64,000 bases of DNA from assembly GCF_003841485.1 (NCBI RefSeq), contig NZ_REFY01000002.1, positions 310,001 to 374,000 on the forward strand, read 5' to 3'. Shown one piece after another: positions 14,941-20,560 of this stretch (position 1 is its first letter; the number at the start of each line of letters is the position of its first letter). A program made the position numbers and the translations under genes. Source of the DNA: Natrarchaeobius halalkaliphilus. Its GTDB lineage: Archaea > Halobacteriota > Halobacteria > Halobacteriales > Natrialbaceae. The notes beneath the pieces were generated by a model. The model saw only the letters and a program-made list of their open reading frames with translations. It was not told where the DNA came from and did not search any database.

Positions 14941-15249
14941 ATGGACACAGTATTGCTCGCGATAATCGTAGGCATCCCGCTCGCCTGGCATCTCGTCCTT
15001 ACGGTGGTGACCTACTACGACGCCGGACGGGTCGGCCTCGAGCCGCCGAGAAAATGGGCGGTGATCACGTTCGCCGTTCCGATCTTCGGCTTTTTCATCT
15101 ATTTATTCGAACGGAGCGAGCTCTCGTACGACCCCGAGACCGATCCGTATCGCGGAAACACGATCAACGTCCACCCCTCTCGAGCGGACGAGGTTCCCCT
15201 GTCATCCCGCAGTGACGAGCGACCGTCTTCGACTCGAGATGACGAGTAG
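14941..15249 (+). CDS. Small two-helix membrane protein
   Basis: A 102-residue protein with two membrane helices (about 4-24 and 39-58) and a hydrophilic acidic tail. The second helix region PRKWAVITFAVPIFGFFIYLFERSE resembles the W...P..G...Y pattern of PLDc_N-type domains, so it may be a distant member. No enzymatic residues are present. It ends 46 bp before the tRNA-Trp gene on the same strand. Confidence 0.65.
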   Translation: MDTVLLAIIVGIPLAWHLVLTVVTYYDAGRVGLEPPRKWAVITFAVPIFGFFIYLFERSELSYDPETDPYRGNTINVHPSRADEVPLSSRSDERPSSTRDDE

Positions 15250-15295
15250 CCTGAATCGAAACCACTTTAGGTAACTTCGACCAACGTCTCATCGC

Positions 15296-15470
15296 GGGGT
15301 CGTGGCCAAGCCAGGGATGGCGACTGACTCCAGAGGTCCCGCGCCCGGGACGACACTCCAGACTGATATACTGATCGGACACCTGATCAGTGTCCGTGTG
15401 ATGACCCTCTGGAGTTCCGAGGCGCACCGGAGATATCAGTCGATCGGGGGTTCAAATCCCTCCGACCCCA
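15296..15470 (+). tRNA. tRNA-Trp (CCA), with intron
   Basis: The acceptor stem GGGGTCG (15296-15302) pairs with CGACCCC (15463-15469), with discriminator A15470 and no encoded CCA. The D stem is GCCA/TGGC. The anticodon stem ACTGA (15323-15327) pairs with TCAGT (15436-15440). The loop carries anticodon CCA at 15330-15332. The TTCAAAT T-loop is intact. An intron occupies 15334-15434, after position 37, as in the known haloarchaeal tRNA-Trp. The spliced anticodon loop reads CTCCAGA. The 3' end is the apparent left border of the island that follows. Confidence 0.95.
15334..15434 (+). ncRNA. tRNA-Trp intron with box C/D-like guide RNA features
   Basis: A 101-nt intron. A box C sequence GTGATGA (15398-15404) and CTGA boxes at 15363-15366 and 15371-15374 are visible. 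A perfect hairpin CGGACAC/GTGTCCG lies directly between one CTGA and box C, the geometry of a kink-turn. In Haloferax the corresponding intron guides 2'-O-methylation of the tRNA-Trp itself (established). The same role here is inferred from position and boxes. Confidence 0.8.
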
Positions 15471-15498
15471 TTCTGAGCTTAATACTATCTTAAGACTA

Positions 15499-15733
15499 CA
15501 GAGACGTCTTCTCTGGACAAAACTCGAAATACCTGTTACCGTATTTCCGGCCGTTTTTGGCAGGAATAATCTGATTTCTGATATACTTCTTTCCCTCCGG
15601 CGGTTCCTATCGTGTAGCGGTGAGCGGTCAGCATCGACGGAGCGCCGCGAGTGCCGGATGGGTGAAAGCCCGGCAATCCCGCCCGGACGAGCTGGCGCAA
15701 GCGAAGCGAGCGACCAGCCTCGTTCCGGCGAGG
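15499..15733. promoter_or_regulatory. Hairpin-rich region, candidate replication origin or rep leader
   Basis: Four hairpins follow each other: CAGAGA/TCTCTG (15499-15515, enclosing AGACGTCT), GCCGG/CCGGC (15653-15674), GCTGG/CCAGC (15691-15718) and CCTCG/CGAGG (15718-15733). They lie upstream of, or inside the doubtful 5' end of, the first gene of the rep operon. Double-strand origins of rolling-circle replicons are often hairpins next to rep. No nick-site consensus could be confirmed. Confidence 0.35.
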
Positions 15734-16149
15734 GAGCGGCGCGAAGGAGTTCTCAAACGACTGGTTCGCCTTCGTCAAAGCGGCTACTGACCGATGGGGG
15801 TCGTGTCGAGAGTGAACCGTCTCTCATTCGCTATCCACCAGTTAAGCCACCGACGATCTCCGAAACCGGCCAGGGTCACCGATACGTTCGCTGTACTCGC
15901 GGTGATAACGACGATACGGTCTATATTCACCAGCTCTGTGCGATCGCTGCTGGCGCTGATCCGTACGATGTCTTCGGTAAACAGTACGACGTCCGTCACG
16001 TCGTACCGACCGAGTGGCTCGGTCCTGACGCCAAGACTGCGAAGGGAACTCCAATTCTCAACACTACAGAGACGGTCGCTCTTGCGCCGATCTGGGCACG
16101 TTGTAGTGATCGGTTTGGGGAAATCGACAGATCGGAGGACGAAGCATGA
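15658..16149 (+). CDS. HNH-like protein, first gene of the rep operon
   Basis: The frame encodes up to 163 residues. The C-terminal part reads YVRCTRGDNDDTVYIHQLCAIAAG, then DVRHVVPTEWLG and GTPILNTTETV. This resembles the HNH endonuclease-like proteins of haloarchaeal plasmids and viruses, with one His of the usual pair replaced. About 45 N-terminal residues are low-complexity and overlap hairpins, so the true start may lie further in; no better ATG or GTG is available in frame. Its stop overlaps the next ATG (ATGA), implying translational coupling. Nuclease activity is uncertain. Confidence 0.55.
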   Translation: MGESPAIPPGRAGASEASDQPRSGEGAARRSSQTTGSPSSKRLLTDGGRVESEPSLIRYPPVKPPTISETGQGHRYVRCTRGDNDDTVYIHQLCAIAAGADPYDVFGKQYDVRHVVPTEWLGPDAKTAKGTPILNTTETVALAPIWARCSDRFGEIDRSEDEA

Positions 16150-16271
16150 CGGTCGTTTGTCGTCACTGCGGCAGGGTGATTCAAGAGCACGGAACAGCCG
16201 TGCTCGAGGATCGCTTTGTTCTTCGGATCTGTCCCGTTGCGAGTCGAACGCCCATCGTCGACGCACGGTGA
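16146..16271 (+). CDS. CxxC microprotein of the rep operon (41 residues)
   Basis: Encodes MTVVCRHCGRVIQEHGTAVL and a further 21 residues containing one more Cys. CRHCG is a zinc-knuckle half site and a His follows at position 15. The start codon overlaps the previous stop (ATGA), and the stop codon is followed immediately by the Rep ATG. This packing shows an operon and supports the gene despite its size. Small accessory genes before repA are known in the SNJ1/pHH205 replicon and are needed there for replication. Equivalence here is inference. Confidence 0.65.
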   Translation: MTVVCRHCGRVIQEHGTAVLEDRFVLRICPVASRTPIVDAR

Positions 16272-18299
16272 ATGGGGGCGCTTTCGGGCACACAGCAAGG
16301 TTGTAACAGATCCAGTTTAGTCCAGTACCTTGCTGACTGCGGCCTGATGGCTTACGGTCAACGTGACTCGAACGCGCTGACCGACCGAAACAGCGACCGC
16401 GTTCGAATTCTCAAGTTCCTTGCACGGCACCCAGAAGGCGTTTCCCAGACTGCGCTCTGTCACTTTGTGCTGAAAGGTGTTGCTCCTAGCGATTACTCGG
16501 GCCTCTACGATCTCTCAGGCGATGCCTACGAACGTCACGATGCTGCTGCTCAGTATTTTTACACCGGTAACGACTGGGTAGCGCTCGATGGCTCCGATGA
16601 TGACTACCAGTTCCTCAATCGATTCGTCAACGATCTCCAGGAGTGTACCGATCTCGTCCGTCTCGAGCACGTCGATCGCGACGACGAGCGGGGACGATGG
16701 GTCTACCCGACCCACCGCCTCCTTGACTTGATTTCGGAAGGCATTCGTGAAACACCGACCGCTTCGAACGAACTCGTCTACGACCGCGAGTTCGTACAGA
16801 ACATGCTCAAGACCTGTAGGAACAGCAGTTTCGACCTTACTGATTCCCAGAAAAACTTTGCAGCTCACGCACTTCGTCGTTACATCCAACGCACGCAGGA
16901 TTACCGATTACTCTTCGATGTGCACCTCGCTAACCGAAGCGGTTACGACCGTCGTCGTATGGAAAAGTCCTACAAAACCCGGTTTACTGACGAAGGGCGC
17001 GTGAACAAGGCTTTCGCGCGGCTTCAGTCAGCACTCGAATACGGCTACGAACGAGCTAAGAACGCCGTGTTCGTGACGCTCACGACTGATCCCGCGAAAC
17101 ATGATTCGCTGTGGGACGCTATACAGGCGATAAATCCGGCTTTTCACAACCTCACGCAGTTTTTCAAAACCGACCCTTCCACGGTCAAGGATACTCGAGA
17201 ATCCGTGGTTCCGTACTGGCGACCTGGACTCGACTCGTCGAACTTTCACTTCGGCCAAGAAGGTGTCGTGTCGGGCAGACCACGTGAACGTCTCGAGTAC
17301 GTCAAAGTGCTCGAATTTGACGGTGGCGGGAAACCACATCTACACTGTCTCTTTTTCGATGTTCCAACCCGTGAGAGCGACGGAATGCCGTGGTTGATCG
17401 ACAAAGACGAACTCTCACATCGCTGGGATCAGTACGGGCAAGGTCGAATCGGCGATCTGTACCCGCTTGCGTATCGTGACGATCTCGACGAAGTCGGTGA
17501 CTTCGGAGATCGCGTCGTCCGTGATGAGGACGGGACTCGTCTCAAAGATGAGGACGGCGAGTTTGTCACGGAACCCGTCGACGAAGGCTTCGTCTCCTGG
17601 TATCGATACGGCGATCACGATCACTCGCAGGAGTGGGTCGATGAGCACGTTCGGTATCACAAAGGAACGGACGGCCTGATCGATATGGACGGTGACGACG
17701 ACGTTCTACAGGAGAAAACTGCTGGTGCATACATCGGGAAGTACATCTCTGAGATGTACGGAACGCTCCTGGATCACAACGCTGCCGACGTCCCGGAGGA
17801 CTTCGATCCGGAACTCGATGCTGACGATGACGATGCGGCGTACTGGAAGCTCGCACTCTACTGGGCGACACAGCGCCAGTTTTGGAGTCCATCAAACGGG
17901 ATTCGCGATGCCATACGGCTCGACGATGATCGCACTGACATTCGTCGCGGTGTCGCTGATGCTACCAGAACATCACTCCTCGTTTCCGCTGAAGCACATC
18001 ACGAGCCTCATGCATCCTATCCCGATCTCGATTCGTCACGAACTGAGTCGCTGTTCCACGATCTCGTTCGTGACCTTCTCGCTGAACGCGAGCTCGAGGA
18101 AACTCGAGCGTCGGTCACGTCGACTACGCTTGCCCGAATCGATTACCTCGGTGCGTACCACTATTCGGACGTTCCCGACAGCGGTGATCGACGCGTGGAC
18201 GCTGCTGTGGTTGAGCAGGCGATACACGATCCGAACGAACCTGTTGTTCTTGCATCTTCTGGCGATAATCCACCACCTGTTGAAGACGTGTGGTCATAG
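16272..18299 (+). CDS. HUH-superfamily rolling-circle replication initiator
   Basis: Up to 675 residues. The N-terminal region has a winged-helix segment (RVRILKFLARHPEGVSQTALC). The HUH endonuclease motifs are in order. Motif 1 is VFVTLTTDP near residue 266. Motif 2 is PHLHCLFF with H356 and H358. Motif 3 is AYIGKYISEMYG with candidate nucleophiles Y487 and Y491. An acidic C terminus follows. Such proteins nick the origin and start rolling-circle replication; the SNJ1 RepA group is related to IS91 transposases. The ATG at 16272 directly follows the preceding stop. An ATG at 16347 is an alternative if the first 25 residues are not translated. Confidence 0.82.
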   Translation: MGALSGTQQGCNRSSLVQYLADCGLMAYGQRDSNALTDRNSDRVRILKFLARHPEGVSQTALCHFVLKGVAPSDYSGLYDLSGDAYERHDAAAQYFYTGNDWVALDGSDDDYQFLNRFVNDLQECTDLVRLEHVDRDDERGRWVYPTHRLLDLISEGIRETPTASNELVYDREFVQNMLKTCRNSSFDLTDSQKNFAAHALRRYIQRTQDYRLLFDVHLANRSGYDRRRMEKSYKTRFTDEGRVNKAFARLQSALEYGYERAKNAVFVTLTTDPAKHDSLWDAIQAINPAFHNLTQFFKTDPSTVKDTRESVVPYWRPGLDSSNFHFGQEGVVSGRPRERLEYVKVLEFDGGGKPHLHCLFFDVPTRESDGMPWLIDKDELSHRWDQYGQGRIGDLYPLAYRDDLDEVGDFGDRVVRDEDGTRLKDEDGEFVTEPVDEGFVSWYRYGDHDHSQEWVDEHVRYHKGTDGLIDMDGDDDVLQEKTAGAYIGKYISEMYGTLLDHNAADVPEDFDPELDADDDDAAYWKLALYWATQRQFWSPSNGIRDAIRLDDDRTDIRRGVADATRTSLLVSAEAHHEPHASYPDLDSSRTESLFHDLVRDLLAERELEETRASVTSTTLARIDYLGAYHYSDVPDSGDRRVDAAVVEQAIHDPNEPVVLASSGDNPPPVEDVWS

Positions 18300-18557
18300 A
18301 CATGACTCCAGGTCTACTAGTTGCTAGAGGGTGTTATAGAACAGCTTGCCACCCTTTGCGGCTACCGACGAACGGTAAGTACAGTACATTGGTTGACCAA
18401 TACAGAGCGAGGTGAAGCAGAATTCAGTCATACTCACTGCCTGTCAGAGGTGGCATTCGGCGTCGGTAGTTTCTCGCGAGCGGAATAGTCCTCCTCTCCG
18501 ACACTGTCGCCGATTCTGGTCACTGGTTTATTAGTATCTCCAGTATTTGTTGTCCGT

Positions 18558-18959
18558 ATGGCATCAATTCCAACAGAGTCTCGTGATTTGTTCAAGAAGA
18601 AGAAGACGTTCGCTCACCTGGCAACGCTCTTGCCGGATGGCGCACCTCATGTCGTTCCAGTTTGGGTGGAGTACGATGCCGATGCTGACCGTCTCTTGGT
18701 GAATACCCAACGTGGCCGCCGGAAGGAAAAAAATGTCCGCCAACAGTCACGAGTTGCCATCAGTATGACTGACCCAGATAACCCTTACCGGATGCTCTCG
18801 GTACGAGGTGAGGTCGACGACATCACTTCAGAAGGGGCACACGAGCAAGTCAACAGGATGGCGGAGCGCTATCTGGGAGACGGGGACTACGCTGACCCTC
18901 AGACAGAACGTGTTATCATCTCAATCAGACCTGAGCAAGTCAGCTACTCTGACTCGTAG
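18558..18959 (+). CDS. PPOX-class F420-dependent oxidoreductase-like protein
   Basis: A 133-residue split-barrel flavin-type protein of the pyridoxamine-phosphate-oxidase-like superfamily. Visible features are FAHLATLLPDGAPHVVPVWVEYD, NTQRGRRKEKNVRQQSRVAIS and MLSVRGEVDDIT, which fit the short F420-binding subgroup. It probably reduces a small substrate with F420H2; the substrate is unknown. It has its own promoter (TTTATTAG near 18527) and may be cargo of the island. The 258 bp before it hold no gene, only a short palindrome TTGGTTGACCAAT. Confidence 0.8.
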   Translation: MASIPTESRDLFKKKKTFAHLATLLPDGAPHVVPVWVEYDADADRLLVNTQRGRRKEKNVRQQSRVAISMTDPDNPYRMLSVRGEVDDITSEGAHEQVNRMAERYLGDGDYADPQTERVIISIRPEQVSYSDS

Positions 18960-19227
18960 GAAGAGAACCGAGTCCAGACAAAGCTGGGAGAAACTATGAG
19001 TCCGCTGGCCGGGTGAGCGCCCGTTCGTCCTCCCTCAGCAGTGGTACAGCGAATAGTAGGCGCGTGGAGTGAACGGATAGTTCAGTCTATCGGAGACGAA
19101 AAGAATTCTATTGAAATCGTTCTATGACTCCCACAGTTAGCTACGCCACTTTCGGTCCCGCCACTGTACGTACAAGACCACGTTTCCCACTTCTAGCTAT
19201 TACTATCACTCTAGTATTTAGATATGC

Positions 19228-19599
19228 ATGGCAACTAGTGATAGTTCTGGAGACGGGTTCCAGACAGCGACGGTATCGAGCGGGAACTACGATGGCGACG
19301 ATGCTGAATGGATTCCTCTCCCGGACGAAGGCGAAGTGATTCAGGGAATCATCCTTGCGATGACTCCAAACAGCGGAGACTACGATCAGCTGCGCGTCCG
19401 GTTCAAGTCGACCGACGGCGACGATGAAGGCGAGATTCGGCTCGCTCACTTCAACCAGACGCTCGAGGACACCGTTCACGAGAATGGAATCTCGGAAGGG
19501 TACGAGTTCCGCCTCGAAGGTGTCGACTCGTACGAGTGGACGGACGACGACGGCAACGAGCGCGAAGGAACCGAACGCGAGCTGGAGTACCGCGCCTGA
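19228..19599 (+). CDS. Acidic protein of unknown function in the tRNA-Trp island
   Basis: A 123-residue soluble protein. The N terminus is disordered (Ser/Gly/Asp). A beta-rich core follows (VIQGIILAMTPNSGDYDQLRVRFKS, EIRLAHFNQTLEDTV, YEFRLEGVDSYEWTD). The shape is compatible with an OB-fold-like or small beta-barrel protein, but I do not recognise the family. It lies 37 bp before the membrane protein gene on the same strand, so the two are probably one unit. A TATA-like TAGTATTTAG precedes it. The 268 bp upstream hold no gene. Confidence 0.6.
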   Translation: MATSDSSGDGFQTATVSSGNYDGDDAEWIPLPDEGEVIQGIILAMTPNSGDYDQLRVRFKSTDGDDEGEIRLAHFNQTLEDTVHENGISEGYEFRLEGVDSYEWTDDDGNEREGTERELEYRA

Positions 19600-19636
19600 G
19601 CAGTAACGCGACGACGTTTTCTCACACACGATTACT

Positions 19637-20560
19637 ATGGCAAATCACAGAAACGGATTCGATCTGGGCGGAATGGCAAACGACTACGCAAACCTTCGAA
19701 CAGTCCCTGCGCTCCTGTCAATCGTCTTCGCGATGGCGTCGCTATACCAGTTCGGCGCTGTCGACGAAATTCACATCCAGTGGTTCGACTACACGCTGTC
19801 GAACACGCACGCTATCGGTGGCTCGCTCGGCGTGTACGTAATCGCGTTCATGTCGAGCCAGACCAAGAGCTTCGAGCACTACCAGGACTGGGAAAAGGTC
19901 ACGATTGCAGCCGGACCGATTCTCATACTCGGGTACGAATACTTGCCGTACCTGCCGTCGGTGATCGAATACCACGATCTCGCACTGTTCGGCCTGGTCG
20001 TCCTCACGCTTGCGGTCGTAGGCTTTTCGATCGCGCTCGTCGGCACTGCCGCTGCCGAAGAAACCTCCGCTGACGATCTCGAGGTCGAACACAACGACAC
20101 TGTCGTTGTCAACGCGACCTTCGCGGAAGACGGTGCGACTGCCGATCTCAACGTGACGATCGTCGCTGACGACAACGAGATTCTAGACGAGTCGACGCAC
20201 ACGCTCGAGGGCGACGAAAACGAGTCCGACGAGTGTCACGGGTTCTTCGATCGACTCGACGACGGCGACGGCGTCCTCGAACTCACGTTCCAGTCGGTAC
20301 GACGGGGCGTCGCCGCTTTCGCCGCGTCCCCGTCGGTCGAACGTGTATACGGTATAGTGCGCCTCGAGGCCGGAGCGAACCGGTCCCCACCTGGAGTGAT
20401 CCGCTGTCGTTCCGTGTACCAGTACGACTGGTGGGCCGCTCCCGGTCCGTTCGTACGCGATCGACGTGCCGTCTGCAGATTTGGCCGTCTTCATTGTCTT
20501 TTGACTTGCCGTTTATACCCTCAGCGAGACAACCAGTTCTATTCGCGTGACTCGTTGTGA
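19637..20560 (+). CDS. Membrane protein running into flanking DNA at the island edge
   Basis: The open frame has 307 codons, but only the first 195 or so look natural. They show three or four membrane helices (about 22-40, 54-72, 88-108 and 116-138). An acidic extracellular-type domain follows, with VVVNATFAEDGATADLNVTIVADDNEI. From about codon 197 (position 20226) the reading is antisense to the truncated hydrolase gene and becomes Arg-rich and unlikely. The native C terminus has therefore probably been replaced at the junction. The family is not recognised. It may be a structural or envelope-associated gene of the integrated element, which is speculation. Confidence 0.5.
   Translation: MANHRNGFDLGGMANDYANLRTVPALLSIVFAMASLYQFGAVDEIHIQWFDYTLSNTHAIGGSLGVYVIAFMSSQTKSFEHYQDWEKVTIAAGPILILGYEYLPYLPSVIEYHDLALFGLVVLTLAVVGFSIALVGTAAAEETSADDLEVEHNDTVVVNATFAEDGATADLNVTIVADDNEILDESTHTLEGDENESDECHGFFDRLDDGDGVLELTFQSVRRGVAAFAASPSVERVYGIVRLEAGANRSPPGVIRCRSVYQYDWWAAPGPFVRDRRAVCRFGRLHCLLTCRLYPQRDNQFYSRDSL
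20183..20494 (-). pseudogene. Truncated alpha/beta hydrolase
   Basis: The frame starts as a normal alpha/beta hydrolase: MKTAKSADGTSIAYERTGSG, PPVVLVHG (oxyanion HG), then FDRRGRGES and EEPVTLVG, which should lead into the nucleophile elbow GHSxGG. Instead, after VTLVG (20226) the sequence turns into antisense of the island membrane gene and soon ends. The nucleophile Ser, the acid and the His are all lost. About two thirds of a typical 260-280-residue enzyme is missing. This marks the right edge of the island, or of a deletion connected with it. Confidence 0.75.

Follow-up and report, generated by a model that had tools for sequence, protein, structure and literature searches.

The genome of Natrarchaeobius halalkaliphilus carries a gene for an HUH rolling-circle replication initiator (Rep) directly behind its tRNA-Trp gene, in a segment that ends in a truncated hydrolase gene. 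This raises the question of what the element is, how it entered the chromosome and what its two edges represent. With a probability of about 0.93, an alphapleolipovirus-type provirus integrated at tRNA-Trp and was then half-deleted and relocated, and the locus is its attL-proximal half. Pleolipoviruses are archaeal viruses that resemble membrane vesicles.

Layout of the locus

Coordinates are positions in the window, the whole stretch of 64,000 nt that was analysed; C2 marks positions on the host contig. The following features were recognised.

15253-15295, plus strand: conserved tRNA-Trp leader (GAATCGAAACCACTTTAGG...), relocated along with the tRNA
15296-15470, plus strand: tRNA-Trp with intron (Rfam RF00005)
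15458-15470, plus strand: attL core CCCTCCGACCCCA, the last 13 bases of tRNA-Trp, identical to attL and attR of relatives
15477-15492, plus strand: left-end motif of the element, consensus CTTAATTATTTCTTAA, conserved in relatives
15658-16149, plus strand: p1, an HNH-endonuclease-like ORF, stop TGA at 16147-16149
16146-16271, plus strand: CxxC mini-ORF, 41 aa, one CxxC motif, overlapping p1 by 4 nt (ATGA)
16272-18299, plus strand: rep, HUH rolling-circle replication initiator of alphapleolipovirus type, intact, 675 aa
18558-18959, plus strand: F420-dependent PPOX-class oxidoreductase gene, host-type, in the variable rep-ORF2 slot
19228-19599, plus strand: ORF2 of the viral core region (phrog_6009), 68% to the gene of the G011 provirus
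19637-20235, plus strand: gene for a VP3-type internal membrane protein, joined in frame with the ectodomain of the viral gene that follows
20225-20235, no strand: right junction TCCGACGAGTG, common to viral gene and hydrolase (microhomology)
20225-20494, minus strand: N-terminal 90 codons of an alpha/beta hydrolase, a pseudogene fragment of the flank

The tRNA scores 45.4 bits against RF00005, with an intron of ~104 nt; ARAGORN in bacterial mode did not call it. The rep ATG at 16272 abuts the end of the mini-ORF at 16271, so that p1, the CxxC ORF and rep are coupled. An earlier note on this DNA had described a rolling-circle replicon remnant beside tRNA-Trp, with the HUH Rep gene in a three-gene coupled operon straight after the tRNA 3' end. 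Both points hold, and the coordinates given there are correct to the base.

The GC content is 53-58% across the element and ~60% outside it. A search for inverted repeats flanking the element returned just short, chance-like pairs, and an Rfam match to BjrC68 at 15645-15720 was dismissed because its score of 22.5 lies below the gathering score of 39. The PPOX gene is of a type widely kept on haloarchaeal chromosomes, and the only close copy in this genome is the one inside the remnant; the rep-ORF2 gap has different content in relatives.

Viral identity

In a phage collection search, the Rep matched HRPV-2 and HRPV-6 at 46% over 99% of its length; the value for Halfgib1 is 40%. It further matches phrog_12863 (E 1.9e-193). 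In a tree of 20 Reps, the window sequence falls in a six-member clade (support 100/99) that is sister to HRPV-2/6 (99/99), and the motif HLH (H356, H358) and the tyrosines Y487/Y491 are invariant among the eight Reps aligned. The ORF from 19637 matches phrog_5900 (E 4e-42) and the VP3 of many pleolipoviruses. Searching IMG/VR with the Rep gave matches only to HRPV-1, -2 and -6 and one further contig, and the plasmid collection gave no Rep match.

The earlier note had left open whether the element is a plasmid, a pleolipovirus relative or SNJ1-like. The Rep at 46%, ORF2, VP3 and complete att-flanked relatives with integrase settle this in favour of an alphapleolipovirus-type provirus. An SNJ1-like virus or plasmid is not supported, as the matches in the phage collection are all pleolipoviruses and the plasmid collection gave no match.

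A small integrative plasmid, with Rep and integrase and devoid of virion genes, as near tRNA-Pro in Haloarcula, would likewise account for an HUH Rep beside a tRNA. Elements with Rep and integrase ~1.5-4 kb apart, in which VP3 and NTPase were not detected, do exist. However, homologues of ORF2 and VP3 follow one another in the window as they do in the viruses, and the window Rep lies in the clade of proviruses bearing virion genes, outside that of the mini-elements. A plasmid origin is accordingly hardly credible.

Judged against the alphapleolipovirus gene set, the locus has a Rep of the HRPV-2/6 kind (RCRE) and, downstream of rep, a VP3-type membrane protein, here fused to the gene behind it; the window contains no spike, ORF6, ORF7 or NTPase. 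As ORF7, NTPase and others are absent here and present in complete relatives, the locus is a remnant and not a whole member.

Parts of the remnant may still function. Since the Rep is intact and retains its catalytic residues, it may remain able to nick a matching origin and replicate from it, and the lack of stops in rep, ORF2 and p1 could reflect some maintained use. For rep, dN is ~0.2-0.28 with dS saturated (~1.5-2.2), values that indicate past purifying selection and have no bearing on the present state of the gene.

Complete relatives and route of entry

Complete proviruses of the same kind occur at the 3' end of tRNA-Trp in G008, G104 and Natrinema altunense AJ2 (G011). They are flanked on both sides by the core CCCTCCGACCCCA, contain virion genes and have a tyrosine integrase next to attR. 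The G008 provirus (16.6 kb) runs from tRNA-Trp through p1, Rep (65%), ORF2, VP3, a large TAT-signal protein in the spike position, ORF6, ORF7 and NTPase to the integrase and then the core, and that of G104 (14.1 kb) follows the same plan. In G011 the element spans a contig break: one contig stops exactly at the tRNA 3' end, and the element is on a second, of 10.5 kb, whose integrase end carries the core. The integrases of these relatives are 75-91% alike and match Phage_integrase. The window shares gene order and left-end motif with them. This motif lies 6 nt inside attL in G001, G008, G011, G019 and G104, and in G001 (same genus) and G019 it is present without a Rep. Of the 18 genome loci outside the family that carry this Rep type, most have a tRNA gene ~0.4-1.7 kb upstream of rep.

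In the G008 spike position (locus L075 oriented, +4851 to +7769 after tRNA-Trp), the protein has 972 aa, a TAT-like signal and repeats that, by eye, resemble a beta-propeller.

The window itself retains the 3' tRNA end as attL core. No second core was found in the window or in the whole genome, which agrees with the earlier report of a missing attR, and a low-stringency search of 20-25 kb for the tRNA-Trp fragment that the same note had proposed to look for gave only one second match (25068, two mismatches), which is at chance level. Further, the integrase, the NTPase, ORF7 and the 260-aa gene have no orthologue in the window genome. Without attR and integrase, the remnant is unable to excise by the site-specific route. 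The earlier note had weighed two explanations for this state, loss of the integrase and entry by an IS91-like rolling-circle route. Loss is upheld, since the integrase is absent from this genome and present in relatives. Because the complete relatives have an att core at both ends and a tyrosine integrase next to attR, entry was most probably by ordinary integrase-mediated tRNA integration, and the IS91-like route finds no support.

Dyall-Smith et al. (PMC7911831) reported that the attP of integrative pleolipoviruses falls within a coding sequence that extends from the integrase as far as the CxxC gene. The p1 frame in the window is open from inside the tRNA (15367) through attL to 16149, as expected of a coding sequence that bridges attP. 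The joined ends of the G008 provirus give a single open frame of 256 codons over attP, p1 included; the corresponding frames of G104 and G011 stay open for just 57 and 51 codons. Homologues of p1 are HNH-like (phrog_7545, 1e-6), and direct reading of the window p1 places Arg at the first His of the HH motif.

The right junction

In relatives, VP3 has a stop of its own, and the gene behind it codes for a membrane protein with a signal. The window lacks the last helix of VP3, its stop and the next start, and the two genes are fused in frame. The fused gene tracks the G020 sequence through AAACGAGTCCGACGAGTG with one mismatch, and the hydrolase starts with TCCGACGAGTGTCAC on the same bases as the end of the fused viral gene. 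The two genes thus overlap by 11 nt (20225-20235), a mark of illegitimate recombination. The right edge is an illegitimate junction inside the virus and not an element end.

The hydrolase (minus strand, 20494 to 20225) matches Abhydrolase_6 at profile positions 1-72 of 217 only. Its similarity to the family ends at residue 90 (20225), one residue short of the GHSxG elbow. Of 125 family genomes, 124 contain a match to the hydrolase, and most of the closer matches are open frames of 260-300 aa; an intact paralogue lies at C2:124591. The earlier description of the gene as cut right before the nucleophile elbow holds. That it marks the far end of the element does not, in view of the later junction inside the virus with 11 shared bp. 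The lost viral half was searched for elsewhere in the genome and not found. The hydrolase C-terminus was not found either, which would fit a simple deletion as well as a more complex rearrangement. Loss of the spike is deduced from relatives and from its absence downstream, spikes being too divergent for a sure genome-wide search.

Rearranged surroundings

All three congeners, and the majority of the other family genomes that were examined, have a DUF5794 gene immediately before the tRNA-Trp leader. In the window genome the two are apart: moaA stands behind DUF5794 (C2:110471), and tRNA-Trp (C2:325296) stands behind PLDc_N. In G001, moaA comes after the tRNA and a virus remnant. tRNA-Trp and the provirus fragment are ~214 kb from the family-typical place beside DUF5794. 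The left breakpoint lies just upstream of the leader at GTAGCC (15246-15251), and this hexamer stands at both the old and the new left junctions. PLDc_N normally has other genes after it, DUF5813 normally has TrkA and Lrp genes next (now at C2:554882), and in relatives the hydrolase adjoins neither the PLDc_N nor the DUF5813 block. The hydrolase, DUF5813 and PLDc_N are not the usual neighbours of tRNA-Trp in the family. Given the displacement of tRNA and fragment by ~214 kb, both edges of the locus are rearrangement breakpoints and not element ends. A simple 224-kb inversion from the TrkA position was considered for the DUF5813 side and set aside, as the local gene order gave no clean two-breakpoint solution.

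New junctions at both edges, a moved tRNA and virus fragment, an HUH Rep and the lack of an att copy are also what a one-ended rolling-circle element (IS91/ISCR-like or Helitron-like) would leave, had its Rep moved a segment that includes the tRNA and ends in the hydrolase. However, integration in the complete relatives relies on a tyrosine integrase and on 13-bp att sites in the tRNA, and the junction falls within a viral gene, where 11 bp overlap, instead of at an ori/ter-like end. Further, neither terminal ori/ter nor recurring ends were found, the right end being unique, and the Rep is nearest to pleolipovirus Reps, with a weak Helitron_like_N match (E 0.058) below cut-off. Rolling-circle transposition is therefore very improbable.

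The relocation may have come about in two ways. Instead of chromosome inversions, an aberrant excision circle that carried tRNA-Trp could have reinserted 214 kb away. This would fit the movement of only the tRNA, its leader and the left part of the virus, the present adjacency of DUF5794 and moaA at the old site and the GTAGCC at both left junctions. Six bases are, however, weak evidence, and no reciprocal product was identified. The DUF5813 and TrkA blocks are displaced too, which points to general rearrangement. It is thus rather unlikely that the provirus mobilised the host's single tRNA-Trp, with tRNA, leader and viral left arm moving as one unit; if it did, a pleolipovirus relocated an essential tRNA gene of its host.

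Proposed history

For the half-deleted provirus, we infer the following history from its observed end states. First, a tyrosine integrase encoded by the virus would have recombined the circular viral genome with the last 13 bp of tRNA-Trp; the tRNA would thereby be kept intact at attL, in line with the paired att cores and the integrase beside attR in relatives. Three further steps are listed with no order implied. An in-frame internal deletion, evident from comparison with relatives, would have fused VP3 to the next gene. Illegitimate recombination at 11 shared bp would have joined the virus, just past VP3, to the hydrolase gene, at the cost of spike, ORF6, ORF7, NTPase, integrase and attR. 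Chromosome rearrangements would have placed tRNA-Trp and the virus fragment ~214 kb from the place after DUF5794. Among the genomes available, none from a strain-level relative shows the complete virus or an uninterrupted hydrolase at this site, and the deletion may have come before or after the relocation.

Comparison with known viruses

HRPV-2 and HRPV-6 (Pleolipoviridae) share with the window a Rep homologous over its full length (46%), followed in the same order by a small ORF, an ORF3-like gene and a VP3-type membrane protein. Both were isolated as viruses, and the annotated genes in their records include no integrase, whereas the window copy is chromosomal and half deleted and its complete relatives have an integrase. 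Haloferax virus Halfgib1 (PMC7911831) is integrative, with Rep, VP3, spike, NTPase, an integrase next to att, a CxxC gene before rep and a 13-bp annotated att. It differs in being a tRNA-Arg provirus, in its Rep (40%) and in its integrase (~28% to that of the window's relatives). The proviruses of G008, G104 and Natrinema altunense AJ2 are alike in tRNA, att core, left-end motif, gene order and Rep (63-73%), and differ in being complete, with integrase and attR, and in their rep-ORF2 gap content.

Alarcon-Schumacher et al. (PMC10599561) name RCRE as a hallmark of alphapleolipoviruses and link the integrase to genome size. S9 Fig of that paper presents a Halobaculum provirus with RCRE, VP3, spike, ORF5/6-like genes, ATPase and integrase at tRNA-Trp; it is complete according to the figure legend, on which its likeness to the window is based. 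As a pleolipovirus-like provirus at tRNA-Trp has thus been published, the window locus is a decayed new member of a described kind. The sections of the pleolipovirus literature consulted (including PMC7911831 and PMC10599561) contained no description of the Natrialbaceae clade, of its integrase family with the att core, of attL-side conservation or of the decay path.

The loci described here present alphapleolipovirus-type viruses as integrative elements with a common tRNA-Trp target in Natrialbaceae, apparently complete proviruses included. They also suggest a pattern of decay in which attL, Rep and VP3 are kept while integrase and attR are lost via illegitimate recombination.

Other elements at tRNA genes

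In G108 (C1:945007, L203) and G110 (C1:782012, L208), the left-end motif of a second element begins immediately past the att core that lies behind the integrase, so that tandem proviruses appear to occupy such a site. The second integrase of G110 is broken (1 stop). A second integrase group (~37% identical) lies 17-20 kb downstream of tRNA-Trp in G002, G007, G021 and G027 (L204-L207), and the same 13-bp core was found behind it in the first three. At least two groups of elements have tRNA-Trp as a hot spot.

In L071, L073, L076 and L088, degenerate copies of the tRNA-Trp 3' end lie ~85-100 bp past tRNA-Trp, preceded by an inverted T-arm sequence, so that a hairpin could form; these copies are perhaps scars of lost elements. 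Halostagnicola sp. A56 (G072; L106, L107, L108) holds another broken element, its Rep being in pieces, with the 5' part after tRNA-Arg and the middle and 3' parts elsewhere. Finally, the mini-elements with this Rep type and an integrase ~1.5-4 kb away (L157, L159, L161, L162 and L164, in Haloarcula, Halolamina, Halovenus and others) lie mostly beside a tRNA, and their Reps group together.
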